Source: Candidatus Cloacimonadota bacterium | Lineage (GTDB): Bacteria; Cloacimonadota; Cloacimonadia; Cloacimonadales; TCS61 | Direction: 5' to 3' | NCBI GenBank assembly: GCA_021735645.1 | Contig: JAIPGP010000039.1 | Span: 1-33,462 of the forward strand | DNA length: 33,462 nucleotides | Part shown: positions 2,837-32,230 of the stretch, one piece after another | Numbering within the stretch: position 1 is the stretch's first letter | How the letters are laid out: each line of letters begins with the position of its first letter | Program-made: the position numbers and the translations under genes | Notes under the pieces: generated by a model | The model's input: the letters and a program-made list of their open reading frames with translations, nothing else | What the model was told of the DNA's origin: nothing | Database searches by the model: none

Positions 2837-2851
2837 ATCAGGTATTGGTCA

Positions 2852-5716: not shown

Positions 5717-5823
5717 TGCGAAGCACAACACCTTTTTCCTTGTACCAGCAGAAAAAAATGGACAATGAATTGTATGAAATAAATATTAGTATATCGGGGA
5801 AATATTATAATTGAGAGGTATAT

Positions 5824-8800
5824 ATGCTCAAGAAGATGCTGGTTTTTGTAATGTTGCTGGTAATATTTCTGTATCTGGCAGGAAAGGGAATTGATGATGG
5901 GGTAAGTGGAAAGAAACTTGATCTACTGCATTATCATAATGTGGGCAATATCTGGCTGCGGGTGAGTAATTATGGTTTTTTTGGCTCGGGAAAAGATATC
6001 ACCCCGCGTTATCCATCTTTGGAATACCCGGGTGGCAGTGGCATAGATTACCTGTTCCGCGGTTCTCTGTGGTTTGGTGCTAAAAAGACTCGCCGTGATG
6101 CTTTTGGGAGAAAATTATACTGGTTAGAAAACCCTGAAGACGAATTTGATGTAGTCACAGATCAGGATGATGACTGGAATGAAAGTCTGAAACTGGTAGT
6201 GGATACGCTGGTGACAGTAGGTTATGATGGAGACTGGGACATCAAGGAGATGCTGCCGGCATATAATCCGCTGGAAACTTCGCCTTTAGGCGACTTGTAC
6301 ACTCATAATAATGCCTATGACGTAACGATGACAACCTCTATCCGTTCGCAGCGACGGGGTGAAGATGATGATGGCGACGGCAAAATAGATGAAGACCCGG
6401 TGGGTTATGCCTTTCCTTTTCGGGCAGGAAATGAGCTGCCGGAAGTTTTCAGTGATTATGGCAGTTTCTATCTACATCAGTTGAATGATGCTGATTTTGG
6501 GAAAGTGATCGACAATATTGAAATCTGGTTTCCCTTAGGATTTGTGGATTTATCAGATAAGAGTAATGAATCGTATAATTTCACTCAGCCAACAGATGAT
6601 GATGGTGATGGTTTATTTGATGAAGATGGCTACCCGGTGTCGGAGCAGGATTTTATTGGTTATTACTATGATTACAGTCCCTTTGGTACTCCCACAGAGC
6701 GTGACTGGGGTAATCATAAAGACCAGAGTGATCATATTCCCTTAAATATCCGCGTGCGACAAATGAGCTATCAGTGGAGTTATGAACATATCAAGAACCT
6801 GGTTTATGTGGAATTTGATGTGACTAATATGAATTTTACCAGCACCTATAGTGACACATTATTTGATTGTGCCATGGGTATATATATGGATTCTGATGTA
6901 GGACCTCAAGCCTGGGATGCAATCTATGCCGATGATGTGAGCTCTTATGTTCCGGGCGTAGGTTATGAATTTGCCTTCACTTATGATCTGGATGGGGATA
7001 GTGGACTTACTGATGGCATGGTGGGATCAAGAGTGTGCACTCCTGACCCGGATCAGCTGGAATTTGCCTGCTGGACCTGGGATAGCGGAGATGGACCGGA
7101 TGATCTGCATCCACTGGATATAAATGCATCTACTACTGCAAATGAGAAATACTGGCTGCTGACAGATTTTAAGAATCCCAATGAGCAGGATTATACTTCG
7201 CTGCGAAGATTCCCTGAAGTTCAGATAAATTCCGGTGGACTTGATACTCGCTATTTATTTGGCTTTTACGGTGCCCAGGAACATACTGGAGATACAGATG
7301 AGCCCGGAGATGAGGGATATGGCATAGCGGATTATCTGGAGACAGATGAATTTGGCAATTATTTCAAACGCTGGAATCTGGCACCCGGCAAGACAATGAA
7401 GATAGTGATAGCAGTATTTCCGGGAGATGATCTCTTGAGCTTGAAGCAGACATCTATTCATGCCAAAGACACTTATGGTGAAGCCCAGGGACTCACGGAA
7501 GTTACACAGCCGGATACATTTATCCATTATATCCCGCCCGAACCTCCAGAAATACCTATGATGTATGCAGAGCTGGTAGATGATGGCAGAGCCTTAGATG
7601 TTTACTGGGATAACCGTTCTGAAATTGATAATGTGGACACCAAAACCGTGAAACCGCAGCAGATTGGCTGGCAGGCTGTCGATACTCTCCTGACAATGGA
7701 CAGCCACATGGATGTGTGGAATAATGATCCTGATTTCCAGGCAGCATGTCCACCTGAATTTGCACCCTATAAGTGGGATGAAGATTTGCAGGCTTATACT
7801 TCCGAAGAAGCTAACCGCAACAGCAATGCCTATGTGAATCCATGGACTGGCTACCGGCTGCGTCATGATTTTCAGGGTTATTCGTTATGGGGCAGAAGTG
7901 GAAGTGGCTCACAGGAATTCTGGATGCTGAAACAGCGTTGGGATAAAGTGGATACAGATCAGGACTATGAAGATTATCTGATAAATTACACTACGGATCT
8001 GTTTATCGATTTTGGTGGAGAAACAGGTTTGGAAAGAGGATTGCCAGATACACGACCGCTTAAAGTTGAAGATTTAGATTATTATCATTTTGATGAGAAA
8101 TATCGACTGGTGCAATATACCAATGCTGATATCGAAAATAATGTGATGATAGCGGGAGAACCTGTCTATAACTGGGACATTGATGATGCTGAGGCTTTGG
8201 AAGCCGCAGTGGGATTGAGTTTTAACGAACAAGCTCTGCTCTATTGTCATCCGGATTTACCAGAAAAAATCTATCTGGAAATCTACGATGATAAGCTGAT
8301 ACCACTCACTAATCATCTGGGACAATCCAATATAGGTATCGAAGAGCGGATGACTGCTTTGCGGGAAAACCGGCTGAGTCGTCGCTATTACAAGGCATCT
8401 ATCAATAATCCGCCTAAGGGAATTGAATATTATGTAGCTGTATCTGCCTGGGATAGAGGGATGCCTTCTCTGGATATTCCGATATTGGAATCTGCCCGTG
8501 ATGCTGATGCTAATATGAAAGTATTTTATCCCGGCTCACAGGCGAAAGATGATCTGGATAATATCTATGTTGTGCCCAACCCCTACATAAGCCACAGTAA
8601 ATTTGACGGGCGGATCAATAATGATACCAAGGGTGACAAAAGCCGGCGATTATGGTTTGTGAATCTGCCGGAGAAGTGCACAATCAAAATCTGGACATTA
8701 GCCGGAGACCTGGTGGATGTGCTGGAGCATGACGGTAATAATAATTTTGAGGATATCATTTCAGTCTCAAAAGCAGCAATGGAAGCTCAGGCTGCCGGGG

Positions 8801-16069: not shown

Positions 16070-19000
16070 TTATTTTCTGGAATTAAGTTTTCTACCCTGT
16101 TCAATAGGGAACTGGTCGATGATACCCACAAAGTATTGCAGAATGAGTGAACCGTCATAGGCTTCCACAGTACCATTTCCATCCACATCTGAGCGGGTGA
16201 TACGCCATTCTTCCCAGGGCAGGGGAGCAACGGCTCCGGGATCGATGCCCACAAAATATTGCAGAGCAATGGAGGCATCAAAAGCTTCCACTATGCCATT
16301 TGCATCTACATCGCCATACATGATACCGCCAGAGGCAGGATTTACAGGAGTGAAGAGAATTGCTGTTTCGTCTGCCAGGGTGTGGGCAGTTTCCGGATAC
16401 ATATTGGCGAAAGTGATTTGCAGACCCTGAGTTCTATCGGGGCTTTCTAATCCTACAGTGGCATAGTTTTCTGCCTGGTCATAATTATTAACCTGCTGAT
16501 AGATAAATATAATTTCACCATCCCCGGTAGCAGTGGGATAGAATTCCGGGTCTCGCAGAACCACCTGGAAATATTGACGGTGGTTAGTGTTATATTCCAG
16601 TCTCATATTTTTCCATTCGAGCATGAATCTATGATTTTCTTCATCATACCAGAAATAGACATAGCCTTCGGAGAGGTCTTCCCAGAAGGGGCATACAAAG
16701 CCGCCAAAACCATAGCCGGAGGGAAGTGCTTTATTACGGAAGAACAGGGTATTTGTATTGCCGAAGGCGAAATATCCATTCTGGCAGACTGTGATACGGT
16801 CAAAGGTTTCACCATAATATTGAAAGTCAAAAGGCAGGTCAAGCTGGTCTAACCAGCCGTCATCAGTTTCGTGCATATGCGGTTGATTAAGGTAGCTTCC
16901 TTCTCCACCCGAATATGGTGAGATATCGAGCCATTCATATACCGGAACTTCAAAATCACCGTTGTCCTGGCTTTCTATTGCCATATAGCCATAGCTGTCA
17001 AAGGTGGGGCTGGCTTCACTGATCTCGCCAATGGGAATGGTGAGTGGAATAACCTGAACCAGTTCAGCACCTTCATAAAGAGAAAGCTGCAGGTTGGCAA
17101 CTTGTCCGGTGATCACATCTGCGGGTAAGAGTTCAAATAGAGATGAGTTTTCACTGGAGTTTCCCGGGGAAATGGAATAATAGGTGGATTCGCTGCTGGA
17201 GACTACTGCGTTGTTATCCAGGCTGAATAACACTGCATTGATAGCTCCTGTAGCAGTTGAACCGCTGTTATATAATTCAATATGTAGAGGACAGACAGTA
17301 CCCTGTAGCAGGAAACCGCTACTGTTTTCAATATCATAACCGGCGAAAGCAACTTCCTGAGATTGAGTTTCCAGCTCTATCAGACTGTTCGAATTGCCTA
17401 AGCTGGAGCTGATATTGCAGAATATTTGACCATAGCGTCCATCAATCCATTGATTATCGGTGTTGATAGTAAAAGTTAATGCAGTTTCATCATCACCAGC
17501 CAGTAAATCCAGATTAGCGGAGCTGACAGGTAGAAAGAAAACACCATCATAATTTAATAATTCAATTGTGATGCCATAAGCACTTGAGCCGGCATAATTA
17601 TGCAGCATCAGTTCCAGTTCAAAGCTGTTTCCGGCGGCAGGAGTGATATTTGTGGAATATTCTGTGATACCCAGCACATCAGCGGCTAATACTTCAATAT
17701 CTTCAGTGGCAGGAATATAGCCGTATCGGGAAGCAGTGACAGTGTATTCACCGAGTGGCATTTCCACGGGGATATAAGCATTGCCATTATTGTTAGTAAT
17801 GTCAGTAGCCAGCAAGCCATCATCAGATGTGACAGCAATGCGGAATCCTTCTACTTGATCATCATCGCTGCTGATAGTTATTTCCAGATAATTTTGTCCG
17901 ATCGGAATTTCTGTGTCTAATTCTAATTCGCAGTTTTTGGGAACATCCGTCCAGATTTCTACAGTGGGGTCGCCTAGAAGGTTATATACATAGAAATAGA
18001 ACTGGTCAGAATCAAGAGCATCGCCCCAGCTGTGACAGAAGGGGAAGTTATTATACATTTCCATTTTGCCGCGCAGCATCATGGCAGAAGTGCCAAATAT
18101 CCCTTCCTGAGTGATGCCCTGATATATACCTAAGTCATTACAGTTATTAAAAGGTGTTTTAGTATCATGCTCGCTGGGTCCGATGAAAGCGATAGCCCCG
18201 CGGGGATTACTGGCAGAGCCGGAGACCAGCCATGTTTCACCAAAGCAGGTGGAGTAGTTGTTATCAGCAAAATCACCACCTCCGCAGACGATACTGGTAA
18301 CCATTGGCAGCATCCAGCCATTGGAGAGGGCATTTATATCGCTGATCTCGAACATGTGTCCCCCAGAAGCACCATTCCAGTAATATGTACTGCCAAAGCC
18401 GCGATAATTAAGAAAAGTATAGCCGGTATTGATCAAGTTGCGCAATTGAGTGTGACTGCTCTGATAAGGAGCAATAAAAGTATCTATCTGGGTATAAGTG
18501 TAATCGAGCAGTTTTTCCCCTGCACAAATCACGGTTTCACGTCCGGAGAAATATTCTGAACCCCAGTTGTCTTCAATCACGCTCATCATCAAACCCTTTG
18601 TGTACCAGTTTGTATTGGTCATATAGGGATTACTTTCATAGTTGATTATCTTGGCGATAGCGGTGGCTAATTGAGTAGTGTTCTGGATTGATATTCTGCC
18701 TATCAGAACATCGGGGAAATAATCAGTTCCTTCCAGCAGAGCATAATTATGGTCTGTAACATCCCAGGGATACATATATCCTTCACAGTAGAAGGCGGGC
18801 AGACTGTAACTGCCACTCACATCACCCACCAGCAGAACATGGTCAGGCGGATACTCCCAGTTATCATAGGCATTCTGGATATAATTCTGGATACTGCTGC
18901 TGCTGCTGCCGGTTTCTGTGGTAGTGGCAATAATGGTGTGGAATCCCATTTTTTGTTTCCATTCTGCCAGTGTTTCCAGATATGAAACAACCGAAGAGCG

Positions 19001-19657
19001 GCTAATAATCAGCAGACTGCCTGCATAATCATTATCATTACGATAATTATCTGCTCCAAATATCCATGACTGTGCCAGTTTATCAAAGGCGGCAGAACCG
19101 GGCAGTTCCCTGCCTGTTTGAGGATTAGTATAATTTGAATAGTCCACGGCGAGTTGAAGATCAAGGTTTGTGATCAGACGAATCTTTTGCAGGGCTGGAT
19201 TATATTGCACTGCAGCTATACTCACCTGCGAAAAACGGTAGTTACGCATGATTGATGGCTCGCTGATAGAGACAATTTCGCTGGGAAACCACTGGTTAGC
19301 GCGGTTATCCTGCCATTGGGTAAGATCTTCCCAGCCACTGGGAATAATTGGGTTTTCGATGTCAATTTCCTTTACATCATAAGTAAATTTGCTGATTTCC
19401 CAGTTACCATTATCAGGCAGAGCGATAATTCTGGTATAATGTGGTAGATCAGGATCACCTATACTGGCTCCCTGCTGCAAACCTTCCACTTCCAAGGTAG
19501 TAAACCGTCCTAATTCCACTGATAGCGTGGATTTAGTGAGCTCCCCAGGCTCTCCGGTTATCTGCAGAACATCGCCAGCCAGATTAATTTCATAGCTGCT
19601 TAAGGCTAAGGTAAATAATAAAAATGTAAGCCCTAATATAAATTTCATTTTTGGCAT
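16070..19657 (-). CDS. Secreted peptidase C25 (gingipain-like) protein with dockerin-like C-terminus; catalytic His apparently replaced
   Basis: The 1195-residue product begins MPKMKFILGLTFLLFTLALS (signal peptide). The ATG at 19657 is preceded by AAAGGAGG; an upstream in-frame start at 19693 has no such site. Residues about 25-200 resemble the C25 propeptide region and about 215-570 the caspase-like C25 domain ('LLIISRSSVVSYLETLAEWK', 'HVLLVGDVSGSYSLP', 'ISIVG'-like strands, 'NLLGDPTVEIW'). The catalytic Cys is in 'SIVCGGGDF' (Cys458). The expected GHG His motif reads 'NYRGFGS', with Phe421 in the His position. Beta-sandwich domains follow. Residues about 1115-1180 form a dockerin-like pair of calcium loops ('GDVDANGIVEAFD', 'SDVDGNGTVEAYD'). 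No T9SS-type tail is present. It is either a protease variant or a non-catalytic relative. Confidence 0.82.
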   Translation of the reverse strand: MPKMKFILGLTFLLFTLALSSYEINLAGDVLQITGEPGELTKSTLSVELGRFTTLEVEGLQQGASIGDPDLPHYTRIIALPDNGNWEISKFTYDVKEIDIENPIIPSGWEDLTQWQDNRANQWFPSEIVSISEPSIMRNYRFSQVSIAAVQYNPALQKIRLITNLDLQLAVDYSNYTNPQTGRELPGSAAFDKLAQSWIFGADNYRNDNDYAGSLLIISRSSVVSYLETLAEWKQKMGFHTIIATTTETGSSSSSIQNYIQNAYDNWEYPPDHVLLVGDVSGSYSLPAFYCEGYMYPWDVTDHNYALLEGTDYFPDVLIGRISIQNTTQLATAIAKIINYESNPYMTNTNWYTKGLMMSVIEDNWGSEYFSGRETVICAGEKLLDYTYTQIDTFIAPYQSSHTQLRNLINTGYTFLNYRGFGSTYYWNGASGGHMFEISDINALSNGWMLPMVTSIVCGGGDFADNNYSTCFGETWLVSGSASNPRGAIAFIGPSEHDTKTPFNNCNDLGIYQGITQEGIFGTSAMMLRGKMEMYNNFPFCHSWGDALDSDQFYFYVYNLLGDPTVEIWTDVPKNCELELDTEIPIGQNYLEITISSDDDQVEGFRIAVTSDDGLLATDITNNNGNAYIPVEMPLGEYTVTASRYGYIPATEDIEVLAADVLGITEYSTNITPAAGNSFELELMLHNYAGSSAYGITIELLNYDGVFFLPVSSANLDLLAGDDETALTFTINTDNQWIDGRYGQIFCNISSSLGNSNSLIELETQSQEVAFAGYDIENSSGFLLQGTVCPLHIELYNSGSTATGAINAVLFSLDNNAVVSSSESTYYSISPGNSSENSSLFELLPADVITGQVANLQLSLYEGAELVQVIPLTIPIGEISEASPTFDSYGYMAIESQDNGDFEVPVYEWLDISPYSGGEGSYLNQPHMHETDDGWLDQLDLPFDFQYYGETFDRITVCQNGYFAFGNTNTLFFRNKALPSGYGFGGFVCPFWEDLSEGYVYFWYDEENHRFMLEWKNMRLEYNTNHRQYFQVVLRDPEFYPTATGDGEIIFIYQQVNNYDQAENYATVGLESPDRTQGLQITFANMYPETAHTLADETAILFTPVNPASGGIMYGDVDANGIVEAFDASIALQYFVGIDPGAVAPLPWEEWRITRSDVDGNGTVEAYDGSLILQYFVGIIDQFPIEQGRKLNSRK

Positions 19658-19804
19658 AAAACCTCCTTTCACATAAAAACAATATATAAGCAATTTTTAT
19701 TCCTTTTTTTGTCAAATAGAAATTAGACCTAGAGAAAATTATTGGATTGACATGTTTTCAGAATTTCTATGATTAGGGTAGCGAAGAAAAAATGGGGGTT
19801 TTTG
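19658..19804. promoter_or_regulatory. Divergent promoter region of the C25 and selenoprotein genes
   Basis: The 147-base gap serves two divergent genes. For the minus strand, TTGACA (19731-19726 read in reverse) precedes TTATAT at a long 20-base spacing, and AAAGGAGG (about 19668-19661) is the ribosome binding site. For the plus strand, TTGACA (19747-19752) and TATGAT (19768-19773) are 15 bases apart, and GGGGG (19795-19799) precedes the ATG at 19805. Shared control of the pair is plausible. Confidence 0.4.
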
Positions 19805-20992
19805 ATGAAGCGGATTTTGACTATTGGTGTATTACTGTTTATCAGTTTCCTGTCTGCATATAGTATTGGAGATACTGTGGGAGACCATTCCTGGACGGAT
19901 AATAATGGAGAATACCACAGTGTTCATGAGTTGGTGGATAGTGGCAGAGTAATTGTATTTTTCTGGGGCGAGAACTGGTGAGGGGGTTGCGTTGCGGCAG
20001 CGCCGCAGCTCAATAGCTGGTGGAATAATGTCAATCAGGATCAGGCTTATCTGTTATGTTCCTATAACTGGAACAGTTATTTTTATGATATGCCCTGGTC
20101 AGCGCAATTAGATAATTATTACAATAATTTTGGTAATGGCTATGTACCCTATTTTTCTGTAATTGGGGCAGATTATGAATATCTGAGTGGGGGTAACAAT
20201 GTTTCCACTGCCATAAGTGCTGCTAATAATGCCATGCTGGGCATGGTCAATATATCCGTTGTCAATCCTATTTCAAATGTGATATTAGAGGCAAATTCCT
20301 CTACTACAATAGACATCAGTGATACATTCATGCATTCCCAGGGTGTTGCCATGACCTATTCCATCACTGCAAATACTAATCCTGACTGCTGTTCGGCTTC
20401 CATCTCAGGCACTACGATATATCTGGATGCCCTGGTTGCAGGGGGATTCTCCAATATTACGGTAACAGCTTGTGCCGGAAATTTATCTGCTGACGATACT
20501 TTCCTGGTTACAGTTCTTGATATATACCCTGCTCCGTTAAATCCCGAAGGAATAGTTATCTATCCCGAAGTATCACTTTCCTGGGAAGAACCGCAAGCTC
20601 TGGCACTTATCACCGGCTGGAATATATACCGGAATAATGAACTGATTGCCTCTTTGTCTGATACACAGTTATCTTATAATGACCTGCCGGAAGATGGCAG
20701 CTATATTTATACAATCCGAACTCAATATCTGCTGGTGGAATCCAGTCCCAGTATCCCGATAGATATTGAAATCTGGAATACAATTGGAGACGTGGATGCC
20801 AGCCAGGAAATTGATAGTTATGATGCTTCGATGATTCTGCATTATGTGGCTGGTATAGAGCCTGGCGGTCTGCCTTTTCCCTGGGTGGAATGGCGCATTG
20901 AACGGGCAGATATAGATGGGAACGGTCTGATTGAAGCCTATGATTGTGCTCTGCTGCTTCAATACATAGTGGGTATTATTGACGAATTATAG
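19805..20992 (+). CDS. Secreted thioredoxin-fold selenoprotein candidate (UxxC) with Ig-like, FN3 and dockerin-like domains
   Basis: If the single in-frame TGA (19979-19981, codon 59) is read as selenocysteine, the product is 395 residues. Residues 1-19 are a signal peptide (MKRILTIGVLLFISFLSAY). Residues about 20-150 form a thioredoxin fold: 'VIVFFWGENW', TGA, 'GGCVAAAP'. The TGA takes the place of the first Cys of WCxxC, Cys62 is the resolving Cys, and Pro67 matches the conserved helix proline. 'GNGYVPYFSVIG' provides the cis-proline strand. Then come an Ig/cadherin-like domain (about 155-240), an FN3-like domain (about 243-320) and a dockerin-like pair of calcium loops (about 326-395, 'GDVDASQEIDSYD', 'ADIDGNGLIEAYD'). 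The whole downstream part keeps the same frame. ATG 19805 has GGGGG upstream; an earlier ATG at 19769 is poorly placed. The alternative is a recent nonsense mutation of a Cys codon, or a sequencing error. Confidence 0.8.
19982..20009 (+). promoter_or_regulatory. Candidate bacterial SECIS hairpin after the in-frame TGA
   Basis: GTTGCGGC (19991-19998) pairs with GCCGCAGC (20002-20009) as an 8-bp stem with one T-G wobble, closing a three-base AGC loop. The loop begins 18 bases after the TGA and has G as its second base. From memory, bacterial SECIS models require a loop about 16-37 bases downstream of the UGA with a G in its first two positions. The run of GC-rich codons here (GCG GCA GCG CCG) contrasts with the AT-rich rest of the gene, as expected if RNA structure is selected. 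Confidence 0.65.
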
Positions 20993-22531: not shown

Positions 22532-23383
22532 TTGAACGGGAAATGCGGATATTTTTTCTGGCTGCTGCTGGCAGCACTATTGCTATCTAATTGCACAAAA
22601 CCACCTAAAGCTGACAGCTCTAACCTGAAACTAGTGATCACATCACCTGAAGTAGCGGAAATTGTTTATCAATTGCAGGGAGAAAAGAATATTGCCGGTG
22701 TGACAATGGAATGCAATTATCCGGTGGAACTTCAGAAGATATTTCGAGTAGGAACTTTTGGCGGGATTGATATGGAGAAAGTTGCCGGTTTACAGCCGGA
22801 TGTGATATTTGTATCCGGATTGGAGCAGAACTTTCTGGCAGCTGAGCTGCAAAAGCTTGCTTTCAGAGTGGAAAAGGTTTATCCTGCTTCACTGGCAGAA
22901 ATGCTGAGATCTATTGGAGAGATAGCAAAAGTTATCGGTGCAGAGCAGGTAGGAAAAGAACTGACCGACAGTTTGAGTGCCGTGATAGAGCATTTGCGAG
23001 AGACAATGCCTGAGCAGCGTCCATCCATCTATGTGGAAATATATGGAGATCCCATTATGAGTGTGGCAGATGACTCGTATGTGGGAGAACTGGTAGAATT
23101 AGCAGGATTTGATAATATCTTTGCCGGTCTGCCTCGAGATTACAGCCGGGTGTCACCGGAAGCTGTGCTGGCTGCTGATCCTGATTATATTTTGCTTTTA
23201 TATCCGGGCATGAATTCTGAGCAGGTGGAAAGTCGTAAAGGCTGGGGTCAGGTAAGTGCTGTGCTCCATCAACATATTTATAATTCAGAAGATATAGATC
23301 CAGACTTGTTGTTAAGGGCAACTCCGCGCTCACTTGAAGGTGTGAAACTGCTGCGAGAACTGATTGAGGAAAGAAATGAGTAA
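22532..23383 (+). CDS. btuF: Cobalamin ABC transporter substrate-binding lipoprotein (BtuF-like)
   Basis: The 283-residue protein starts at TTG 22532, five bases after AGGAGG. It gives MNGKCGYFFWLLLAALLLSN then Cys21, a lipoprotein signal with lipobox LLSNC. A longer frame upstream would be the riboswitch and is rejected. The body is a cluster A-II (BtuF/FhuD/HmuT) binding fold: 'KLVITSPEVAEIVYQL', 'RVGTFGGIDMEKVAGLQPDV', a long central helix (about 125-165), then 'YVEIYGDPIMSVADDSYVGE' and 'VSPEAVLAADPDYILLLYPG'. The cobalamin riboswitch points to a B12 or cobinamide substrate. It overlaps btuC by 8 bases (ATGAGTAA). Confidence 0.9.
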   Translation: MNGKCGYFFWLLLAALLLSNCTKPPKADSSNLKLVITSPEVAEIVYQLQGEKNIAGVTMECNYPVELQKIFRVGTFGGIDMEKVAGLQPDVIFVSGLEQNFLAAELQKLAFRVEKVYPASLAEMLRSIGEIAKVIGAEQVGKELTDSLSAVIEHLRETMPEQRPSIYVEIYGDPIMSVADDSYVGELVELAGFDNIFAGLPRDYSRVSPEAVLAADPDYILLLYPGMNSEQVESRKGWGQVSAVLHQHIYNSEDIDPDLLLRATPRSLEGVKLLRELIEERNE

Positions 23384-24296
23384 GCACTGGCGGGTCATTC
23401 TGCTTTTTGCACTGATGACAGCAGTGATTTATATATATATAGTATTTGGCGCGGCATCTGGCTATGTGATCCAGCATTTACGGCTGCCACGGCTGGTGCT
23501 TACCATGCTGGTGGGCATGACGCTGGGCAGCGTGGGATTTGCTTTTCAATTGTTATTAAATAATCCTCTGGCAGAGCCTTATATCTTAGGAGTCAGTTCC
23601 GGAGCTGCCCTGGCAAGTATCTTAGCTGGAGCTGCGGGTTTATTTCTACTGATGCCGCTATTTGGTTTTCTGGGAGCGCTGGCTGCCATGCTGGCAGTTT
23701 ACTGGCTGGCACAAAGAGACGGGATGTTCAATACAACGCGATTACTATTGGCAGGTATCATTGTGGGCATGTTCCTATCCTCCATAATATCATTGGTGAT
23801 GTATTTGAACCAGAATGATATTGGGAATATTATCAATATTTTAATGGGTAATCTAGGGCATATATTCAGTAATAGCGATTGGCAGATATTTATAGGGATT
23901 GCCATCATCTGTCTGGTTCTGCTGGGCTGGCTGGCTTTGCAGGGCAGACGGCTGCTGGTGCTTTCTACTGGAGATCTGTTAGCAGGGAGTCTGGGGCTGA
24001 ATGTGCGACGGCTGCGGGTGCAGATATTTATTGTGTGCTCTTTATTGACCGGGCTAACGGTAGCTTTTTCCGGGATAATCGGCTTTGTGGGATTGATAGT
24101 ACCGCATCTGGTGCGCCTAATCTGGAAAGGGAACAAGCCTGAAAGTATATTTTATGCCGGAGTATTTGGCTCTGTATTCTTATTGATCTGTGATTTTATT
24201 GCCATGCATCTGGCAGTGATCGAATTACCGGTAGGGATAGTGACCTCCTTTATCGGCTGTCCATTATTTATCTATCTGCTTTGGCGGAAGAAATAA
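23376..24296 (+). CDS. btuC: Cobalamin ABC transporter permease (BtuC/FecCD family)
   Basis: This is a 306-residue polytopic inner-membrane protein of the FecCD/BtuC family. Typical motifs are 'RLPRLVLTMLVGMTLGSVGF', 'NNPLAEPYILGVSSGAAL', 'GIIGFVGLIVPHLVRL' and the conserved 'GNLGHIF' region. About nine to ten membrane segments are visible. The ATG at 23376 overlaps the end of btuF and follows GAGGAAAG, so translation is probably coupled and under the same riboswitch. Its ATPase partner is not adjacent; the best candidate is the gene at 26712. Confidence 0.92.
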   Translation: MSKHWRVILLFALMTAVIYIYIVFGAASGYVIQHLRLPRLVLTMLVGMTLGSVGFAFQLLLNNPLAEPYILGVSSGAALASILAGAAGLFLLMPLFGFLGALAAMLAVYWLAQRDGMFNTTRLLLAGIIVGMFLSSIISLVMYLNQNDIGNIINILMGNLGHIFSNSDWQIFIGIAIICLVLLGWLALQGRRLLVLSTGDLLAGSLGLNVRRLRVQIFIVCSLLTGLTVAFSGIIGFVGLIVPHLVRLIWKGNKPESIFYAGVFGSVFLLICDFIAMHLAVIELPVGIVTSFIGCPLFIYLLWRKK

Positions 24297-24370: not shown

Positions 24371-25000
24371 TTAGAGATTAATCGTGACTTTTTTCACACC
24401 GGGCAGTTTTTCGATGTGTTCTCTGATCTCATCAGCTACATTTTCGCGGTACTGGTCAAATTTGGGGATTTCCACATCAATAGTCACTAATCCGTCTTCA
24501 TTCACACTGGCATATTTCACCATTTTAAGCGATATAAGGTCTTCTCCAACTTTGGGATAGAGAATTTTGGCGAGTTCAGCGAGTATCATTTCCTTGTTCA
24601 GCGAGCCTTTATCAGATTCAATGAGGTGATGAGCAATTTCATAATTTTTTATAGCCTTGCGTAGAGTGTCCACTGCCAGTACGGAGCAGTGCATTTTCAC
24701 AGGTGGCAAGCCATCCAGTTCTTCAGCGGCTTCTTTCCAGGAGATGGCTTTGGCTTCGGCAATGGTTTTGCCCTTTGCCATATCGGTAATGATGGAAGCA
24801 GTGGCGATATTGGAAGCGCAGCCATAGGAAAGAAAACCAATGTCTTCAATAACCTGGGTATCTTCATTGACATTTAGCCAGATAGACACCTGGTCACCAC
24901 AGGCGGGACTGCCTTCTGTTGCTTCTGCATTTGAGGTGTCAAGCTTGCCCAGATTGTGGGGTTTCATAAAGTGATCCAGAACTTTTTGTGAATACTGCAT
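24371..25000 (-). CDS. iscU: IscU-type Fe-S scaffold fused to a MIP18/DUF59 domain
   Basis: The 209-residue protein has two parts. Residues 1-125 are an IscU scaffold with ligands Cys34 and Asp36 in 'GSPACGDQ', Cys61 in 'SYGCASNIA' and His104-Cys105 in 'KMHCSVLA'. It also has the HscA-recognition motif LPPVK (99-103). Residues about 135-209 are a MIP18/DUF59 (SufT/PaaD-like) domain: 'ILAELAKILYPKVGEDLISL', 'LVTIDVEIP' and 'EHIEKLPGVKKVTINL'. The first part assembles clusters from desulfurase sulfur; MIP18 proteins help deliver them. The fusion therefore suggests assembly and hand-over in one chain (inference). The gene lies 13 bases after iscS. Confidence 0.9.
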   Translation of the reverse strand: MQYSQKVLDHFMKPHNLGKLDTSNAEATEGSPACGDQVSIWLNVNEDTQVIEDIGFLSYGCASNIATASIITDMAKGKTIAEAKAISWKEAAEELDGLPPVKMHCSVLAVDTLRKAIKNYEIAHHLIESDKGSLNKEMILAELAKILYPKVGEDLISLKMVKYASVNEDGLVTIDVEIPKFDQYRENVADEIREHIEKLPGVKKVTINL

Positions 25001-25013
25001 GATTACTCCTATA

Positions 25014-26198
25014 TTATTGTTTTGCTATAAAATCTGCATACAGAGGACTGCGGCGGCGTAATTCTTTTACCACTTCCTCCAGTTTATCAACTACATAATC
25101 AATTTCTTCTCTGGTATTATATCTGCTTAAAGTAAATTTCATAGAGCTGTGGCTTTGTTCGTGATTACGTCCCATAGCCATCATTACATAATTTGCCTGC
25201 AGTCCTTCGGAGAAGCAGGCACTGCCAGTAGCTACACTGATGCCGTATTGGTCAAGCATCATCATAATAGCTTCGCCTTCAATGAAATCAAAAGAGACAT
25301 TCAGGTTATGGGGTGCACGATAATCGCAGAAAGCGCCATTGAGCATAGTATAGGGAATTCTCTTTTCAATACTTTCAAATAGATAGCGTGTCAGGTTGCG
25401 GATATAATCCACGTTTTCCTGGAATTTATCAAAAGCCAGTTCCACTGCTTTAGCAAAACCGGCTATATTAGCAATTGAAATAGCACCTGTAGCCAGGGGG
25501 TCAATTCTATTGATACCGTGACGAGTGGGAGCAACTGATATGCCGGGTTTGATATAGAGTGCACCCACACCTTGAGGTCCATGGATTTTGTGAGCACTGA
25601 GAGTGAGCATATCCACATTCATCTGCTGCACATCGACCGGTACTCTGCCATATCCCTGGCAGGCATCTACAAACAGAGCTGCATTAGATATGGATTCATC
25701 AATGATCTTTTTAATTTCTGTGATATCCTGCAAAGTGCCAACTGTATGATTTGCCAAAGTGGTCATCACCAGGATAGTATCTTTCCGTAGCTCTTGTTTC
25801 AGTTCTTCCAGATCAATGAAACCATCAGCATCGCAGCTCAGATAACTCACTTCAAAACCGCTTTCTTCAAAATAGGCAGCATTCGTGAGGATATCAGGGT
25901 AATCCACAATTGAGCAGATAATATGGTTCCCTTTTGCTGCATTAGCAGAGATATAGCCCTTGATTGCCAGGTTATTAGCATCAGTACCGCTATTAGTGAA
26001 GTGCACAGCTTTCGGCTGGGCGTTGATAGAACCAGCCACTATAGCTTTGAATTCTTCCAGTTCCCGGCTGCGTTCCGTGCCGGGCTGAATAAAGTTTTCC
26101 GGAAAGTGAAACTTTTCTTTATAATAGGGCAGCATGGCATCAATCACTTCCGGGGCTGGTTGACTGGTGAGACAATTATTCAAATAAATTCGCTTCAT
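25014..26198 (-). CDS. iscS: Cysteine desulfurase (IscS/NifS-like, atypical)
   Basis: This 394-residue PLP enzyme takes sulfur from cysteine and passes it to IscU as persulfide. The PLP lysine is Lys204 in 'LSAHKIHGPQGVGALY' and the persulfide cysteine is Cys328 in 'ATGSACFSEG'. Asp178 lies in 'LFVDACQGYG'. Two features depart from typical IscS. The 'TEH' motif whose His stacks on PLP reads 'VDY' (Asp99-Tyr100). The usual 'GGGQE-G-RSGT' loop reads 'RHGINRIDPLATGAIS'. Genomic context (iscR before, iscU after) still supports the Fe-S role, although substrate preference could differ. The ATG at 26198 has AGGAGATC upstream and overlaps the end of iscR by 23 bases. Confidence 0.88.
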   Translation of the reverse strand: MKRIYLNNCLTSQPAPEVIDAMLPYYKEKFHFPENFIQPGTERSRELEEFKAIVAGSINAQPKAVHFTNSGTDANNLAIKGYISANAAKGNHIICSIVDYPDILTNAAYFEESGFEVSYLSCDADGFIDLEELKQELRKDTILVMTTLANHTVGTLQDITEIKKIIDESISNAALFVDACQGYGRVPVDVQQMNVDMLTLSAHKIHGPQGVGALYIKPGISVAPTRHGINRIDPLATGAISIANIAGFAKAVELAFDKFQENVDYIRNLTRYLFESIEKRIPYTMLNGAFCDYRAPHNLNVSFDFIEGEAIMMMLDQYGISVATGSACFSEGLQANYVMMAMGRNHEQSHSSMKFTLSRYNTREEIDYVVDKLEEVVKELRRRSPLYADFIAKQ

Positions 26199-26619
26199 GA
26201 TCTCCTCTTATATATTTATTTATTATACTTTGTAAATTGATATTGGAAAAGTATGATTCCAGATCAGTTCCGATCCGGTCCCAGAACCCGCGAAGATGGC
26301 AGCTTAGACCCTGACAGTAATCCGCATCAATTTTCTGATGCCGGCAATAAGTGTAGTAATGAGATTCTTCCACAGCGTGCATCACATCCTGCAGAGTTAT
26401 AGTTTCTGCCTCACGAGCCAGCAGGTAGCCGCCATTAGTGCCTTTTCTGCTTTTCACCAGCTCCGATTTCTTGAGCAGACTGAAAAGCCGTTCCAGGTAT
26501 TTGGAAGGCAATTGCTGTCTATTAGCCAGCTCCGCGATGGATAGAGGCTGTTTGTCTCCAGTGAGTGCCAGCTCAATCATTGCTCTGAGAGCATATCCCG
26601 TCTTCGTTGATATATACAT
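26176..26619 (-). CDS. iscR: Rrf2-family transcription regulator (IscR-like)
   Basis: The 147-residue protein has an Rrf2 winged helix-turn-helix at about 1-80 ('YISTKTGYALRAMIELAL', 'SIAELANRQQLPSKYLERLF', 'LVKSRKGTNGGYLLA'). Three cysteines follow at 92, 102 and 107 in 'YCRHQKIDADYCQGLSC', the place where IscR holds its [2Fe-2S] cluster. It is expected to sense Fe-S status and repress its own operon. The spacing of the first two cysteines (9 residues between them, against 5 in E. coli IscR) is larger than usual. AAGGAG precedes the ATG. Divergent from btuD. Confidence 0.9.
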   Translation of the reverse strand: MYISTKTGYALRAMIELALTGDKQPLSIAELANRQQLPSKYLERLFSLLKKSELVKSRKGTNGGYLLAREAETITLQDVMHAVEESHYYTYCRHQKIDADYCQGLSCHLRGFWDRIGTDLESYFSNINLQSIINKYIRGDHEANLFE

Positions 26620-26711: not shown

Positions 26712-27491
26712 ATGATAAATATTTATAATTTGAGTGCTGGTTACCATGACCGGCAGGTGTTGCATAACATCGATCTGCAGTTTAAGCCAGGCAGTTTCAC
26801 GGCATTATTAGGACCTAATGGTGCCGGTAAGACTACGTTGCTCAAATGCCTTAGTGGCTATTTGGCGGCATCTGCCGGCAGGATAGTGATCAATGGTAAA
26901 GAACTAAGAGAATACAGAAGCAGACAGCTTGCTCATCAAATAGCTCTGATCCCGCAGAATTTTCAGTTGCAGTTTGAGTATCAGGTGCGGGAACTGGTGT
27001 TGATGGGCAGATTTCCTTATCTGGGGTATCTGGGCAGTTACACAAAAGAAGACAAAGAAATAGTGAGAAGCACATTGCATGAGCTTGATCTGCTGGAGCT
27101 GGCGGATAAGAATTTCAGTGAGCTATCCGGTGGCGAACAGCAGCGGGTGGCTATTGCCCGGGCATTAGTGCAATGCACACCGATTCTGCTATTGGATGAG
27201 GCTTTTGCCAGTCTGGACGTTAATCATGCCATCAGCATAATGCAGCTATTATCTGAAATTCATTTCACGCAGGACAAGACCATTATCCTGGTCTCGCATA
27301 ATATCAATCTGGCAGTGGAATACTGCACGCAGGCGATATTAATGAAAGATGGACAGATAATCAGACAGGGGCAGCCCAAAGATGTGATCACAGAAGCTTC
27401 CCTGGTAGAGGTGTATGAACACAATATTCAGGTGATAACTAATCCGGTGAGTGGACAGCCCAATCTGGTATATTCGGGATATAAGAGATAA
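26712..27491 (+). CDS. btuD: ABC transporter ATPase for cobalamin (BtuD/FecE family)
   Basis: The 259-residue ATPase shows Walker A 'GPNGAGKTT' (34-42), Q-loop 'IALIPQNFQ', signature 'LSGGEQQRVAIARAL' (from about 138), Walker B 'ILLLDEAFASLD' and switch His in 'ILVSHN'. It belongs to the iron-siderophore/B12/heme importer ATPases. It is the natural partner of BtuF and BtuC, which lack an adjacent ATPase. Its stop codon overlaps the ATG of the TonB receptor gene (TAATG), tying the receptor to this importer. Cobalamin as substrate is inferred from the btuFC riboswitch 2.4 kb upstream; iron-chelate or heme uptake is the alternative. Confidence 0.85.
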   Translation: MINIYNLSAGYHDRQVLHNIDLQFKPGSFTALLGPNGAGKTTLLKCLSGYLAASAGRIVINGKELREYRSRQLAHQIALIPQNFQLQFEYQVRELVLMGRFPYLGYLGSYTKEDKEIVRSTLHELDLLELADKNFSELSGGEQQRVAIARALVQCTPILLLDEAFASLDVNHAISIMQLLSEIHFTQDKTIILVSHNINLAVEYCTQAILMKDGQIIRQGQPKDVITEASLVEVYEHNIQVITNPVSGQPNLVYSGYKR

Positions 27492-29653
27492 TGAACCTAA
27501 AAACGGAAATAGTTATTATGGCTTTATTATATTGCCTGACTTTATCGGCAGAGCGGGTATCCGGATACGTAACTGATGAGCAGGGTCAGCCTCTGGATCG
27601 GGTTTTAGTGAAAAGCTCAGATGATTTTGCCATAACCCGGGAAGATGGAATATATCATTTGAGTGTGACTGTGCCAGATACGGTGCTTTTCCATAAACTG
27701 GGATATGCCGAAATGCGTCTGGCAGCAGATTCAATACCCTTAAAACTGGTTCTGAATAGAACTGCTCTCAGTATTGCCGGCAGAGATGTGGCAGGCAGCC
27801 GTTATAATGACCAGCCGTTAGTTCGCAGACTGATCACAATATCAGATAATCAGGTAGAGAACGAATCACTGGCGGGTTTCATTGCAGCAGAAACGGGATT
27901 ACAGCTAAACGGCACACGCACAGCAGGGACGCAGCAGACCTTGAAAGTGCCGGGTTATGAAAGCAGGCATACGCTGGTGATGCTGGATGGGATTCCGCTG
28001 AACATTGCTGGTGAGGAATTTGACCTTTCGCGAGTACCGCTCAGTTTAATAGCCGAGATAGAGATAATATCTGCTGCAGGCACTGCCGGTTCAGGAGGGA
28101 TGGGTACTGTGATCAATCTGAAAACCGGACAGCCCAGGCAGCCGGTCGAACTGGAAACTGCAATTAGTTATGGCTCATTTGACTATTATACTGCTAATCT
28201 CAGATACAGCAGAATTTTTCAGCGTTTCACCTGGCAGACTAATATCAGTTATCAGCAGGCGGAAAACGATTTTACTTATCCGGCACCTGAAAACTGGAAT
28301 CTGGTAGAGGAAGAATTGACCAGGGAAAACAATTCTTTCCGGCAGGCAGATATTTCTGCCTTTTTCACTTATCGCACGCAGTGGGGTGACTGGGATATAA
28401 AAGCATATTACACAGACTTTATACGCATGCTGCCGGGTGCGATAAATAATCCGGAGCAATTTTACAAAGCTCAGATCTCGGGAGAGATTTTTAAAGGACA
28501 ATTTAGCTGGAATTATGACAGGCAGAAGCTGAACTATTCCTGGAAGAGCTGGTATAATCAGGAAAACACAGTATATGATAATACACGCCTTGATGAAGCA
28601 TATATCAATAACATATATTATTATATCTGCGGTAAGAATAATAAAAAGAGCAGCGGTATCAGACCGCAGATCAACTGGAAACCAGTCTCAAATATAAACC
28701 TGAAGCTGGGTGCTGAACAGCTTTATGAAAGTTATAAATATGAAGAAACAGTGCACCAGCTAAATTCTCAACCCGAAGTTAAAAGAACTTCCCAGGCAAT
28801 ATTTTCCGAACTGGCTCTGAATCTGGAAAAGGGCAGGTTTTCTCCGTGGCTGAAGCTGGACAGTCGGTATGATGTTACTGAGGATTTTTCACCAGAAACA
28901 AGCGGAGGTGCTTTTTGCGGGATAGCTTATGAATCACAGCTAAAACTCTCAGCCTCGTTTGGCAGACTCTGGAGCTATACCCTGCCCTCATTCTACAGCC
29001 TCTACTGGCAGGGCAATGCGGAAGCAATCGGAAATCCTGACCTGAAACCGGAAACCAGCAGCGGATATAAAACGGCTGCCAGTCTGCAGTATCTGGATAA
29101 CATGCTCAGTTTTTCCTGTAGAAAAGATGAATTGCAGGATATGATAATCTGGATTGAATCCGTCAACAAAGCCTGGAAACCTGTCAATATTGGTGAAGCT
29201 CAGGTTACTAATCTGGAATATATGGGAGAATTGACTCCAGCGAAAAATATTAATTTTAAGGGCTCATATACTCAGACAATTTCAGCAGATAAAACCAGGC
29301 TGGAAAATGGAGAAGCTTCGGCTTATTATAATAAAGAACTTATCTACACTCCTGATTATCAGGGCAATTTAGGTATAAACTGGTCCCCGGCACCTTGCAG
29401 TTTTAATATTAACATGCAGTTTACCGGCAGTCAATGGACTACTCGTGACCAATTGACCCAGCAGAAACTTTTGGCAGAATATCAGTTATACAACTGCTCT
29501 GCGGGTTGGAACATGAAATATCGAAACTGGCTGATCACCTGGCAGCTCCAGATCAATAATCTCTTGGATGAACACTATAATATCTATGAATATATGCCGC
29601 AGCCCGGCAGAAATTACAGTTTTACTATTAAATTAAAAAAGAGGATAAGATGA
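27491..29653 (+). CDS. TonB-dependent outer-membrane receptor (BtuB-like)
   Basis: The 720-residue protein starts with a short signal segment (about 1-18). A carboxypeptidase-regulatory-like beta domain follows at about 20-90 ('VSGYVTDEQGQPLDRVLVKS'), then a plug at about 105-215 ('FIAAETGLQLNGTRTAGTQQ', 'VMLDGIPLN', 'IAEIEIISAAGTAGSGGMGT'). The rest is a 22-strand-type barrel ending 'YSFTIKLKKRIR', with the usual 'LDEHYNIYEYMPQPGRNY' C-terminal signature. The N-terminal extra domain is common in Bacteroidota-type receptors. Coupling to btuD suggests uptake of cobalamin or cobinamide into the periplasm. The next gene starts 4 bases before this one stops. Confidence 0.88.
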   Translation: MNLKTEIVIMALLYCLTLSAERVSGYVTDEQGQPLDRVLVKSSDDFAITREDGIYHLSVTVPDTVLFHKLGYAEMRLAADSIPLKLVLNRTALSIAGRDVAGSRYNDQPLVRRLITISDNQVENESLAGFIAAETGLQLNGTRTAGTQQTLKVPGYESRHTLVMLDGIPLNIAGEEFDLSRVPLSLIAEIEIISAAGTAGSGGMGTVINLKTGQPRQPVELETAISYGSFDYYTANLRYSRIFQRFTWQTNISYQQAENDFTYPAPENWNLVEEELTRENNSFRQADISAFFTYRTQWGDWDIKAYYTDFIRMLPGAINNPEQFYKAQISGEIFKGQFSWNYDRQKLNYSWKSWYNQENTVYDNTRLDEAYINNIYYYICGKNNKKSSGIRPQINWKPVSNINLKLGAEQLYESYKYEETVHQLNSQPEVKRTSQAIFSELALNLEKGRFSPWLKLDSRYDVTEDFSPETSGGAFCGIAYESQLKLSASFGRLWSYTLPSFYSLYWQGNAEAIGNPDLKPETSSGYKTAASLQYLDNMLSFSCRKDELQDMIIWIESVNKAWKPVNIGEAQVTNLEYMGELTPAKNINFKGSYTQTISADKTRLENGEASAYYNKELIYTPDYQGNLGINWSPAPCSFNINMQFTGSQWTTRDQLTQQKLLAEYQLYNCSAGWNMKYRNWLITWQLQINNLLDEHYNIYEYMPQPGRNYSFTIKLKKRIR

Positions 29654-30897
29654 TAAAAAAAACCATATTATTTATATTACTAACTTTCTGTTTCCTGCTT
29701 AATGCTGCGGTGCTTTATATATTGAATAGCGGCAGTGAAACGCTTTCCAGGATCGATCTGGAAACGGGAAATGTTAATAATGCCTTTGCTGCTTTGGGCT
29801 ATATGCCAAACCGGTTTGTCTGCAACACGCAGTATATATATGTGGCAAATTCAGGTGACAACAGCATTCAGAAGATAGAAAGCAGCACAGGGGCTACGCT
29901 CACCAATATTTTTCTGGGCTTGAATGTTAATCCCTATGACCTGATCCTGACAGAGGATTATCTTTTTGTATCCGGGGGATTTTCTAATCAGATATACAAA
30001 ATAGAACTGGCAACTGATACAGTAATTGATCAGGTAACAGCAGGCAATAATCCGGCAGGCATGGCAATTAGTGGCAATAAACTCTATGTGGGCAACACGG
30101 ACTACATGACAAACTATAATAATTGCTCCGTTTCGGTTATTGATCTGGAAGCATATGAGGTTATCGCTACAATTCCCACAGCAACAAATCCGCAGTACTT
30201 GCTGGCAGATGGAGATCAGGTTCATGTTTCCTGCACCGGTGACTGGTCAGACGTTATGGGGACGATCCAGATTATTTCAATTTCCACAGATACTATAGTA
30301 CACACCATAGAAATGGGTGGTTATTGCGGCGACCTTACGATCACTCCAGAGGGCATTGTGTATATTGGAGACGCCATGAATGCAGGAGTTTATGCTTATA
30401 ACGCTGCTGACTGGACAGTACTCTATTCTCCTGCTGAGCCTTTTCTACCTGGAGGCAGTGTTATAGAAGCGGATAATACAAACCTGGCAGTTCTCGGTGG
30501 CGAATGGGGACAAAATTTCACGGTCAATCTCTATGAGCTCAATGAGACACACATCTCTGATTTTCAAGTGGGACTTTATGCCATAGATATGAAATTCCAG
30601 CTCCAGCAGTCTTCAACAGACGAAAATTATGTTACTGAAGCTCATGAAGTGACTACATATCCAAATCCTTTCTACAATACGGTAACTTTTAGAACCACCG
30701 ATTCCCGCAGTCAGATAGAGACCATCAAAATATATGATATCAGAGGCAGATTAGTAAAAAATATCACCAGCCCAATGCTACCTGTCTGGGATGGTAAAGA
30801 TAATTCCGGGTTGCCAGTTCCCTCTGGAATTTATCTCTCAATTGTGAAAACTGCCGCTAATTCCTCAACTGCTATCCGCCTGATAAAAATGAAATAA
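29650..30897 (+). CDS. YncE/YVTN-like beta-propeller with T9SS-type tail; candidate BtuG-like surface cobalamin-binding protein
   Basis: The 415-residue protein has a signal peptide (about 1-19), then YVTN-type blades: 'LYILNSGSETLSRIDLETGN', 'YIYVANSGDNSIQKIE', 'DYLFVSGGFSNQIYKIELAT', 'NKLYVGNTDYMTN' and 'CSVSVIDLEAYEVIATIPTA'. From residue 337 it has a sorting tail ('YPNPFYNTVTF', 'IKIYDIRGRLV', 'SGIYLSIVKT'). It overlaps the receptor gene by 4 bases and is therefore in the btuD-receptor operon. In Bacteroides, BtuG is a surface beta-propeller lipoprotein that binds cobalamin very tightly and caps BtuB. The same pairing here, with a secretion tail replacing a lipobox, suggests an analogous role. 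Binding is inferred from fold and context only. Confidence 0.78.
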   Translation: MIKKTILFILLTFCFLLNAAVLYILNSGSETLSRIDLETGNVNNAFAALGYMPNRFVCNTQYIYVANSGDNSIQKIESSTGATLTNIFLGLNVNPYDLILTEDYLFVSGGFSNQIYKIELATDTVIDQVTAGNNPAGMAISGNKLYVGNTDYMTNYNNCSVSVIDLEAYEVIATIPTATNPQYLLADGDQVHVSCTGDWSDVMGTIQIISISTDTIVHTIEMGGYCGDLTITPEGIVYIGDAMNAGVYAYNAADWTVLYSPAEPFLPGGSVIEADNTNLAVLGGEWGQNFTVNLYELNETHISDFQVGLYAIDMKFQLQQSSTDENYVTEAHEVTTYPNPFYNTVTFRTTDSRSQIETIKIYDIRGRLVKNITSPMLPVWDGKDNSGLPVPSGIYLSIVKTAANSSTAIRLIKMK

Positions 30898-31027: not shown

Positions 31028-32230
31028 GTGGAGCTTAGGCTAAAAATAATATATTCAGATTTTATGGATGAGATAACCAAAAATGATATCCTGAGAAAAA
31101 TTGAAGAGCATCTGGATAAACAGGGCATATCTCTCCTTGAGTGTCACATTGAATATGATGGGATATTGATTCTTACAGGTGGCACGGAGCAGGCTGTAGC
31201 AAATGAGATCAATCAGCAGGTTTTGGATAAGATAATCTTATTTACTCATCGGGGTAATAATTCCTTGGCTGCTGCCTTGGAGATTTCTGCCAGTTTTCAG
31301 CGGCAAAATAGAAGCGTGAAGATAATTGATCTGGAGGCGGGAGAAATAGATTTTGATACAAACCAGAACAATTTGAGCGAACAAAAGGCAAAGAGCAGTT
31401 TACTTGGCTATAGATTGGGTGTTATTGGTAAACCTTCTAACTGGCTGATCGCCAGTACTTATTCGGCAGAAGTGCTGCAGCGCAGGTGGGGAATAGAGTT
31501 GCAAAAAGTTGAGATAGCCTACTTGCGAGAGCTTATCAGTAAACATTTATCAGATTCAGATAGCAAGGAAGTGAGGCAATATTCTGGTGAGGTGAGGGAA
31601 CCTGACGGGCAGGACCTGCTAAATTCTCAAGCGGTATATCTGGCTTTAAAGGAAATAATCACTGAATATGAACTTGATGCGCTGACGATTCGTTGCTTTG
31701 ATCTGGTGGTTGAAGATAAAATGACTGCCTGTTATGCTTTGGGCAGATTGAATGCCTCGAATTTTCCAGCCGGCTGTGAAGGTGATATTGCCAGTATTAC
31801 CGGGATGATGTGGGCAAAAAAAGTGCATGACAAAATACCCTGGATGGCTAATCCCGTGCGTATTGACCGTGAGAGATCAGTTATTACTCTTGCCCATTGC
31901 ACCGCACCCTTAAGCGATCTTGAGAATGTGGTTATGCGTTCACACTTTGAATCCGGACTGGGAGTGGGAATTCAAGGCAAGCTGAAATATGATGAAGTGA
32001 CATTATTCAGATTGGGAGGCGAGTATCTGGAAGATATCTGGGCAGCAGAAGGCAGAGTGACAGGGCATCTGCAGGAAGAAAATCTTTGCAGGACTCAGCT
32101 TGAGATCAGCCTTGATGCCGGTGATTTAAAAGCCCTTATTGATAAACCACTGGGGAATCATCTGCTGGTTTTATCGGGGAGATATAAAAAAGAGATTTTA
32201 GCCACGGATTTCACGGATTTGCACGGATAA
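31028..32230 (+). CDS. L-fucose/L-arabinose isomerase-like protein, C-terminus altered by a repeat
   Basis: The 400-residue product starts at GTG 31028 with AGGAGA upstream. Residues about 1-130 form a Rossmann-like domain with 'IEYDGILILTGGTEQAVA' and 'THRGNNSLAAALEISASFQR'. Residues about 195-360 match the C-terminal half of fucose isomerase-like proteins: 'LTIRCFDLV', 'CEGDIASITGMMWA', 'LAHCTAPLSD' and 'HFESGLGVGIQG'. The sugar substrate is unknown. The final residues (ATDFTDLHG) and stop are encoded by an intergenic CACGGATTT-type repeat beginning near 32196, just where relatives continue after a 'HLLVLSGRY'-like strand. The native C-terminus therefore seems to be lost or replaced. It may be functional or decaying. 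Confidence 0.72.
   Translation: MELRLKIIYSDFMDEITKNDILRKIEEHLDKQGISLLECHIEYDGILILTGGTEQAVANEINQQVLDKIILFTHRGNNSLAAALEISASFQRQNRSVKIIDLEAGEIDFDTNQNNLSEQKAKSSLLGYRLGVIGKPSNWLIASTYSAEVLQRRWGIELQKVEIAYLRELISKHLSDSDSKEVRQYSGEVREPDGQDLLNSQAVYLALKEIITEYELDALTIRCFDLVVEDKMTACYALGRLNASNFPAGCEGDIASITGMMWAKKVHDKIPWMANPVRIDRERSVITLAHCTAPLSDLENVVMRSHFESGLGVGIQGKLKYDEVTLFRLGGEYLEDIWAAEGRVTGHLQEENLCRTQLEISLDAGDLKALIDKPLGNHLLVLSGRYKKEILATDFTDLHG

Follow-up and report, generated by a model that had tools for sequence, protein, structure and literature searches.

Described propeller-receptor pairs and the locus in Cloacimonadota

BtuG, a lipoprotein that carries an export signal for the cell surface, has been reported only from Bacteroidetes, and several of its members bind cyanocobalamin (PMC6143338). 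In the structure of the BtuB3G3 complex, Tyr538 in EL8 of the receptor contacts the cobalamin that is held by BtuG3; an aromatic residue is kept at this position (BtuB1 has Trp, BtuB2 has Phe), and deletion of EL8 abolishes growth on B12 (PMC10404256). The same paper treats BtuG as characteristic of gut Bacteroides (PMC10404256). Two systems of Escherichia coli and the cargo proteins of the T9SS offer further points of comparison. To our knowledge, E. coli BtuB has no propeller partner, and we know of no cobalamin riboswitch that accompanies the PqqU (YncD)/YncE system, which likewise comprises a TonB receptor and a seven-bladed YVTN propeller as protein types. Known T9SS cargo proteins are mostly enzymes and adhesins, and those of type A may be either anchored or released.

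The locus described here lies within a window of 33,462 nucleotides, the whole stretch of DNA that was analysed, in a Cloacimonadota genome whose closest named relative is Ca. Stygibacter frigidus. With a probability of roughly three in four, it is a corrinoid (B12) uptake locus at which a BtuG-type propeller, delivered by the T9SS, captures corrinoids and hands them over to a BtuB-like receptor. A phylum whose members are mostly uncultured anaerobes has a B12-regulated propeller related to BtuG, accompanied by a BtuB-like receptor of its own and differing in its anchor. Capture of this type was discovered in gut Bacteroides and appears not to be limited to them. Should the propeller bind corrinoids, surface capture would represent a more general answer to competition for B12, and exchange of the anchor would be demonstrated. 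In that event, the pair would also provide a second, distant family in which the lid-and-eject mechanism, with its EL8 aromatic residue, could be tested by mutation.

Organization of the locus

At the 5′ end of the locus is a cobalamin riboswitch (RF00174; 22292-22465, forward strand), which scores 83.3 bits in cmscan against a gathering cut-off of 31.5 and, in a whole-genome search, is the sole cobalamin riboswitch in the 3.77 Mb genome. Downstream on the same strand are a btuF-like gene for a substrate-binding lipoprotein (22532-23383; PF01497, 1.6e-29) and a btuC-like gene for a FecCD permease (23364-24296; PF01032, 1.1e-72). The former displays a lipobox (LLSNC) and, by our own reading of the sequence, a TTG start behind GGAGG; the top NCBIfam matches of the latter are BtuC models, yet they fall below the cut-off. 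These elements reside 4 kb upstream of a second group of genes on the same strand, and the iscU, iscS and rrf2 genes occupy the reverse strand between the two groups (24371-26619). The second group comprises a btuD/fecE-like gene for an ABC ATPase of the FecCD/BtuD type (26712-27491; PF00005, 1.4e-35), a gene for a BtuB-like TonB-dependent receptor of 720 aa (27491-29653; Plug domain, 9.6e-8) and a gene for a BtuG-like propeller of 415 aa (29650-30897), all on the forward strand. NCBIfam matches of the ATPase include heme, Fe-dicitrate and corrinoid ATPase models at 243-252 bits, every one of which is below its cut-off.

A first-pass annotation of this DNA had placed the btuD-like ATPase at the head of the operon, in overlap with the receptor gene, and had noted an overlap of four bases between the receptor and propeller genes. 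Both features are present in the sequence, the first overlap being a single base (TAATG) and the second the tetranucleotide ATGA (29650-29653). The riboswitch and the btuF-like and btuC-like genes in the same window had been missed. The order riboswitch-F-C-(isc reversed)-D-receptor-propeller is retained in many genomes of the order, and the reverse-strand isc insertion between btuC and btuD is kept in several of its families. A cobalamin riboswitch likewise precedes the same locus in relatives, and is not confined to the btuF-btuC genes of the window.

A search for a separate riboswitch of the btuD-receptor-propeller operon in the window found none, and the gap between this operon and the divergent rrf2 gene measures 92 bp, which weakens the case for B12 control of the operon in the window. 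Conceivably, the two forward-strand groups constitute a split (noncontiguous) operon around the inserted isc genes, or the outer-membrane part is under the control of Rrf2. The genome also encodes methylmalonyl-CoA mutase and a corrinoid protein, and a search of it for CobB/CbiA detected none; the presence of B12-dependent enzymes in the absence of detectable CobB/CbiA is as expected of a cobamide importer.

The receptor resembles BtuB proteins that are paired with BtuG

The best NCBIfam model for the receptor is TIGR01779 (TonB-B12), which matches with 79 bits (2.1e-22) and does not reach the equivalog cut-off of 599.7, so that by this model the protein is called BtuB-like rather than BtuB. 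When a profile built from 44 receptor sequences was compared with solved structures, the B. thetaiotaomicron proteins BtuB2 (2e-48), BtuB3 (1e-46) and BtuB1 (5e-43) came first, followed by E. coli BtuB (6e-37), Cir (2.5e-27) and others, among them PqqU (6e-21). Judged by this profile, the nearest solved relatives of the receptor are the BtuG-paired BtuBs and then E. coli BtuB. The predicted structure (pLDDT 87) displays a 22-strand barrel, and a fold search with it is led by BtuB2, BtuB1, BtuB3 and E. coli BtuB, which are nearly tied at Z 37-38.5. The receptor shares with these four proteins the architecture of a TonB-dependent 22-strand barrel with a plug, and it differs from them in its sequence (15-19% identity over the structural alignment) and in an extra N-terminal carboxypeptidase-like domain. 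A TonB-type fold with closest similarity to BtuB coincides, in this protein, with linkage to a cobalamin riboswitch or to btuFCD genes.

A more specific resemblance is found in EL8. In the profile alignment, the segment W562-K-P564-V-N566 of the receptor (29174-29188, forward strand) aligns with Tyr538-S-P-V-N of BtuB3, such that W562, its position counted from the alignment, takes the place of the tyrosine that contacts cobalamin. The W-x-P-x-N motif occurs in all 54 receptors inspected, with W562, P564 and N566 invariant in the 44 aligned sequences and present in 10 more, and it conforms to the aromatic-x-[PM]-x-N pattern that BtuB1, BtuB2 and BtuB3, the partners of BtuG proteins, have in EL8. 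The motif is absent from E. coli BtuB, which reads LKYYN at this place, and from the other full-length TonB receptor that was aligned from the genome of the window, which reads QYEN. The EL8 motif offers the clearest clue that this receptor operates alongside a ligand-holding propeller.

A second full-length TonB receptor is encoded elsewhere (contig 130 of genome G000, 2844-6060), immediately after two ATPases that were named as ECF-type from their sequences. That locus looks like an ECF-linked outer-membrane import system.

The propeller is probably related to BtuG

The propeller protein consists of a signal peptide (residues 1-18), a seven-bladed propeller (19-320), a disordered linker (321-330) and a T9SS type A domain (approximately 334-415). 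YVTN repeats are recognized by TIGR02276 with 57.5 bits, consistent with the YVTN-type blades that the first-pass annotation had read from the sequence, and DSSP assigns strands for seven blades in the predicted structure (pLDDT 92.7). The structural comparison with BtuG that had been proposed as a check places the model on BtuG1-3 (VIA) with Z 31-36 and an rmsd of 2.0-2.4 Å over 287-298 residues. The YVTN S-layer protein 1l0q, at Z 36.5, is tied with the best BtuG, and other propellers reach Z 33, so that the fold alone does not decide the relationship.

A profile of 45 propeller sequences (A1) matches 1l0q at 1.5e-28, BtuG1 at 3e-22, BtuG2 and BtuG3 at 1e-15 to 1e-16, and YncE at 4e-7; by this measure the closest relatives of the propeller are BtuG1-3, apart from one generic YVTN S-layer protein that outscores BtuG1. 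The single sequence from the window was insufficient by itself, since phmmer placed 1l0q first, the BtuG1 structures at 2e-4 and BtuG2/3 only at 0.005-0.1; the relationship emerged with the 45-member profile. PF16819, the Pfam family to which the BtuG propeller belongs and which is listed beside B12-binding DUF4465 proteins (PMC13398666), is annotated in a BtuG1 relative of Bacteroides finegoldii and is matched by six of the 45 orthologs; searched as a single sequence against Pfam, the propeller of the window has no PF16819/DUF5074 match. In comparison with PqqU and YncE, both members of the pair share the protein type and have a lower similarity than to BtuB2 (for the receptor) and BtuG1 (for the propeller).

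Several further features are held in common with BtuG1, BtuG2 and BtuG3 of B. thetaiotaomicron. In addition to the seven blades, N-terminal strands complete blade 1 in each of these proteins, and the N-terminal start, NSGSETLS in the propeller described here, resembles NQNNSSLA in BtuG1 and NEG...NATLS in BtuG2/3. Like BtuG, the propeller adjoins a BtuB and is part of a B12 regulon. The differences are a sequence identity of 17-20% over the structural alignment and, most conspicuously, the manner of attachment: a plain signal peptide and a T9SS C-terminal domain are found in place of a lipobox. In a strict classification the protein is not a BtuG, since it lacks the lipoprotein feature; it is better described as a T9SS-tailed capture protein of BtuG-like type, whose binding is predicted.

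Predicted export by the T9SS and a proposed mechanism

The C-terminal sorting domain (30649-30894, forward strand) exceeds the cut-offs of both relevant models, TIGR04183 (37.8 bits, cut-off 23) and PF18962 (29.7 bits, cut-off 27), and contains the motif YPNPF at residues 337-341, which includes the PNPF tail of the first-pass annotation. TIGR04183 is matched by 44 of the 45 aligned orthologs. No lipobox is visible in the Cloacimonadota propellers that were read, which carry a plain signal peptide instead. The genome of the window encodes SprA (449 bits over its segments) and a PorU-like protein whose 384 bits lie just under the equivalog cut-off of 420. Because the tail exceeds both model thresholds, the genome encodes SprA together with a PorU-like protein, and a lipobox is lacking, export by the T9SS is well supported at the level of sequence; the T9SS-type route without a lipid anchor that had been suggested at first reading is backed by these features. 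With regard to the sorting domain and the secretion components in the genome, the propeller thus resembles T9SS type A cargo proteins; a vitamin-capture propeller as T9SS cargo was not found in the open literature searched.

In the proposed mechanism, the N-terminal lipid anchor of BtuG would have been replaced by a C-terminal T9SS sorting domain on a propeller domain that is probably BtuG-related. The propeller would be exported by Sec, cross the outer membrane by the T9SS via its C-terminal domain, and reach the cell surface, there to capture corrinoids on the face that bears its conserved loops. It would then pass the corrinoid to the BtuB-like receptor, where the EL8 tryptophan may help to dislodge the ligand, and the BtuF-like, BtuC-like and BtuD-like proteins would move it through the periplasm and the inner membrane. 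Corrinoid binding, surface anchoring, complex formation with the receptor and hand-over by the propeller are steps that we infer. As far as can be judged from sequences and predicted structures, the pair works like BtuB-BtuG, and a BtuG-like capture strategy outside Bacteroides, as the first-pass annotation envisaged, finds support in the linkage to btuFCD genes and a riboswitch, in the superposition of the propeller model on BtuG1-3, in the profile relationships to BtuB1-3 and BtuG1-3, and in the EL8 motif.

Distribution and riboswitch linkage

The propeller is present in 103 of 124 genomes of the phylum (66 of the 70 good genomes), with one copy in each, and is of full length in most of the phylum. 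One close ortholog of the receptor was found in 50 of 59 genomes. In the first set, which samples the order, 40 genomes have the receptor and propeller genes side by side in the same orientation, -17 to 561 bp apart; the two are also neighbors in all five loci sampled from family f13, which belongs to another order of the class. This conserved adjacency, together with the presence of the propeller throughout the phylum, indicates that the pairing of receptor and propeller is not due to chance. The co-evolution signal between the two proteins exceeds what the distances of IscS and of the ATPase account for (partial r 0.47; 0 of 5000 permutations); it was dropped as a signal specific to this pair, given that propeller and ATPase correlate about equally when IscS is accounted for (0.52). 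Two metagenome-assembled genome records labeled Armatimonadetes/Armatimonadota (loci L109 and L121) bear the Cloacimonadota propeller locus; they appear to correspond to G010 and G022, which were placed in the family of the window, and this suggests mislabeling.

In family f10, the propeller gene is often distant from the receptor gene, and a fixed lid is therefore not required by gene order. Where the two are separated, the propeller has a riboswitch of its own in most such genomes (G037, G038, G050, G056, G057 and G058), and in G055 the genes are neighbors and yet have one riboswitch each. Among 35 further f10 loci, in which matches cut by the contig end (L133, L137) are counted, a riboswitch lies directly before the propeller gene in 31, and before the receptor-propeller pair in two, and none is present in the remaining two; in the 31, its 3′ end is 143-211 bases ahead of the conserved start of the mature protein. 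This brings the genomes with a riboswitch directly upstream of the propeller gene to 38 (seven in the first set and 31 in f10), and separate riboswitches for receptor and propeller are present in G055, G058, L152, L155 and L159. Genomes that were searched whole contain one to three riboswitches, so that their placement before the propeller cannot be due to chance, and the position directly before this gene ties the propeller to B12 independently of the receptor. In four genomes of one genus (G043, G053, G063 and G066), no riboswitch for the propeller was detectable, and for G043 and G053 none was found before the propeller even at lax settings.

The separation of the genes in many f10 genomes, with a riboswitch that would permit independent dosage of the propeller, also bears on an alternative in which the propeller is a released, cobalophore-like scavenger. 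Comparable to the HasA hemophore, part of the protein would leave the surface, bind corrinoid at a distance and return to the receptor rather than act as a fixed lid, a behavior that would be compatible with the general capacity of T9SS type A cargo for release. The adjacency of receptor and propeller in 40 genomes argues against this, as does the EL8 motif, which is common to lid-type BtuBs and points to direct contact with a ligand held by the propeller, and we regard a released scavenger as unlikely. Capture at the surface with hand-over to the receptor is the preferred reading.

Corrinoid binding and the nature of the substrate

The case for corrinoid binding by the propeller has been built so far on regulation, homology and fold, and a mapping of the BtuG2 pocket residues Trp194, Tyr239 and Trp272 onto the propeller did not give reliable one-for-one conservation, since the blades may align out of register. 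It might accordingly be proposed that the propeller belongs to the B12 regulon and sits at the surface without binding corrinoid, for instance to scaffold the receptor or to cap it protectively. The relationship to BtuG speaks against such a role, given that cyanocobalamin is bound by several BtuG members (PMC6143338). In addition, residues conserved in at least 90% of sequences cluster in the loops of one propeller face (11 of 75 loop positions, versus 1 of 48 on the other), a contrast to be read with the caveat that YVTN repeats themselves favor this face. A non-binding propeller therefore seems improbable, and a corrinoid-capturing protein remains the favored interpretation. An argument from surface charge, based on the negative binding face of BtuG2, was discarded, as the conserved-face loops are the more negative in only 4 of 45 sequences; the propeller domain as a whole is acidic, with a mean charge of -25 across the 45 sequences.

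Import of another molecule by the pair, which might be PQQ, heme or a siderophore if the propeller is likened to YncE and the receptor to PqqU/YncD, can be set aside as very improbable: the propeller does match YncE and, with 72 bits against a cut-off of 287, the propeller family TIGR03866 that is associated with PQQ; the best ATPase models are those for heme and Fe-dicitrate, and iron-sulphur assembly genes sit inside the locus, but cobalamin riboswitches precede btuFC, the receptor and the propeller itself, and PqqU, Cir and heme receptors are all more distant from the receptor than BtuB is. The siderophore or heme reading in particular was rejected on the riboswitch evidence, and the consistent linkage of receptor homologs to siderophore or heme genes, which had been named at the outset as grounds for abandoning the BtuG comparison, was not encountered; the genes found beside them are btuF, btuC and btuD, accompanied by cobalamin riboswitches.

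Lipoprotein propellers in an unrelated lineage

A similar arrangement is found in metagenome-assembled genomes of a small, unrelated lineage, in which a propeller that bears a lipobox comes after a short TonB receptor (L122, 3979-6981; L123, 165-3129). The lipoprotein propeller scores 98 bits against the A1 profile, and the same receptor-propeller pair exists in a third genome of this order (G126; L187, 1151-4436). In the latter, a divergent cobalamin riboswitch of 34.0 bits, over the cut-off, lies directly before the receptor gene. Weaker matches occupy the same place in L122 and L123, one of 31.3 bits (just under the cut-off) and one of 32.0 bits to the AdoCbl-II model (cut-off 36.5). Judged by the lipobox, the anchor of these propellers is probably a lipid, which suggests that the anchor varies while the propeller does not.

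A broader view can be put forward tentatively. BtuG-type propeller capture may be an old, multi-phylum module whose anchor has been exchanged, being a lipoprotein with an export signal in Bacteroidota, a T9SS domain in Cloacimonadota and a plain lipoprotein in L122, L123 and L187; at the same time, the Cloacimonadota T9SS form, whose gene often lies apart from that of the receptor and under a separate riboswitch, may go beyond the role of a lid paired one-to-one with the receptor and trap corrinoids in a dispersed or releasable form. Taken jointly, these two proposals are possible, if doubtful.

Other genes in the window

A 400-aa protein encoded after the propeller (31028-32230) has a weak match to the sulfoquinovose isomerase SftI; among the relatives examined, this neighbor lies beside the propeller only in G001, which belongs to the same genus. 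Another secreted protein with a T9SS tail, displaying an immune-inhibitor-A-like MAM domain, is encoded at 505-2769. Dockerin domains occur in a C25 (gingipain-like) peptidase of the window (16070-19693) and in another of its proteins (20090-20992), both of which fit the cellulosome-like complex that has been reported for Ca. Stygibacter (PMC8542988).
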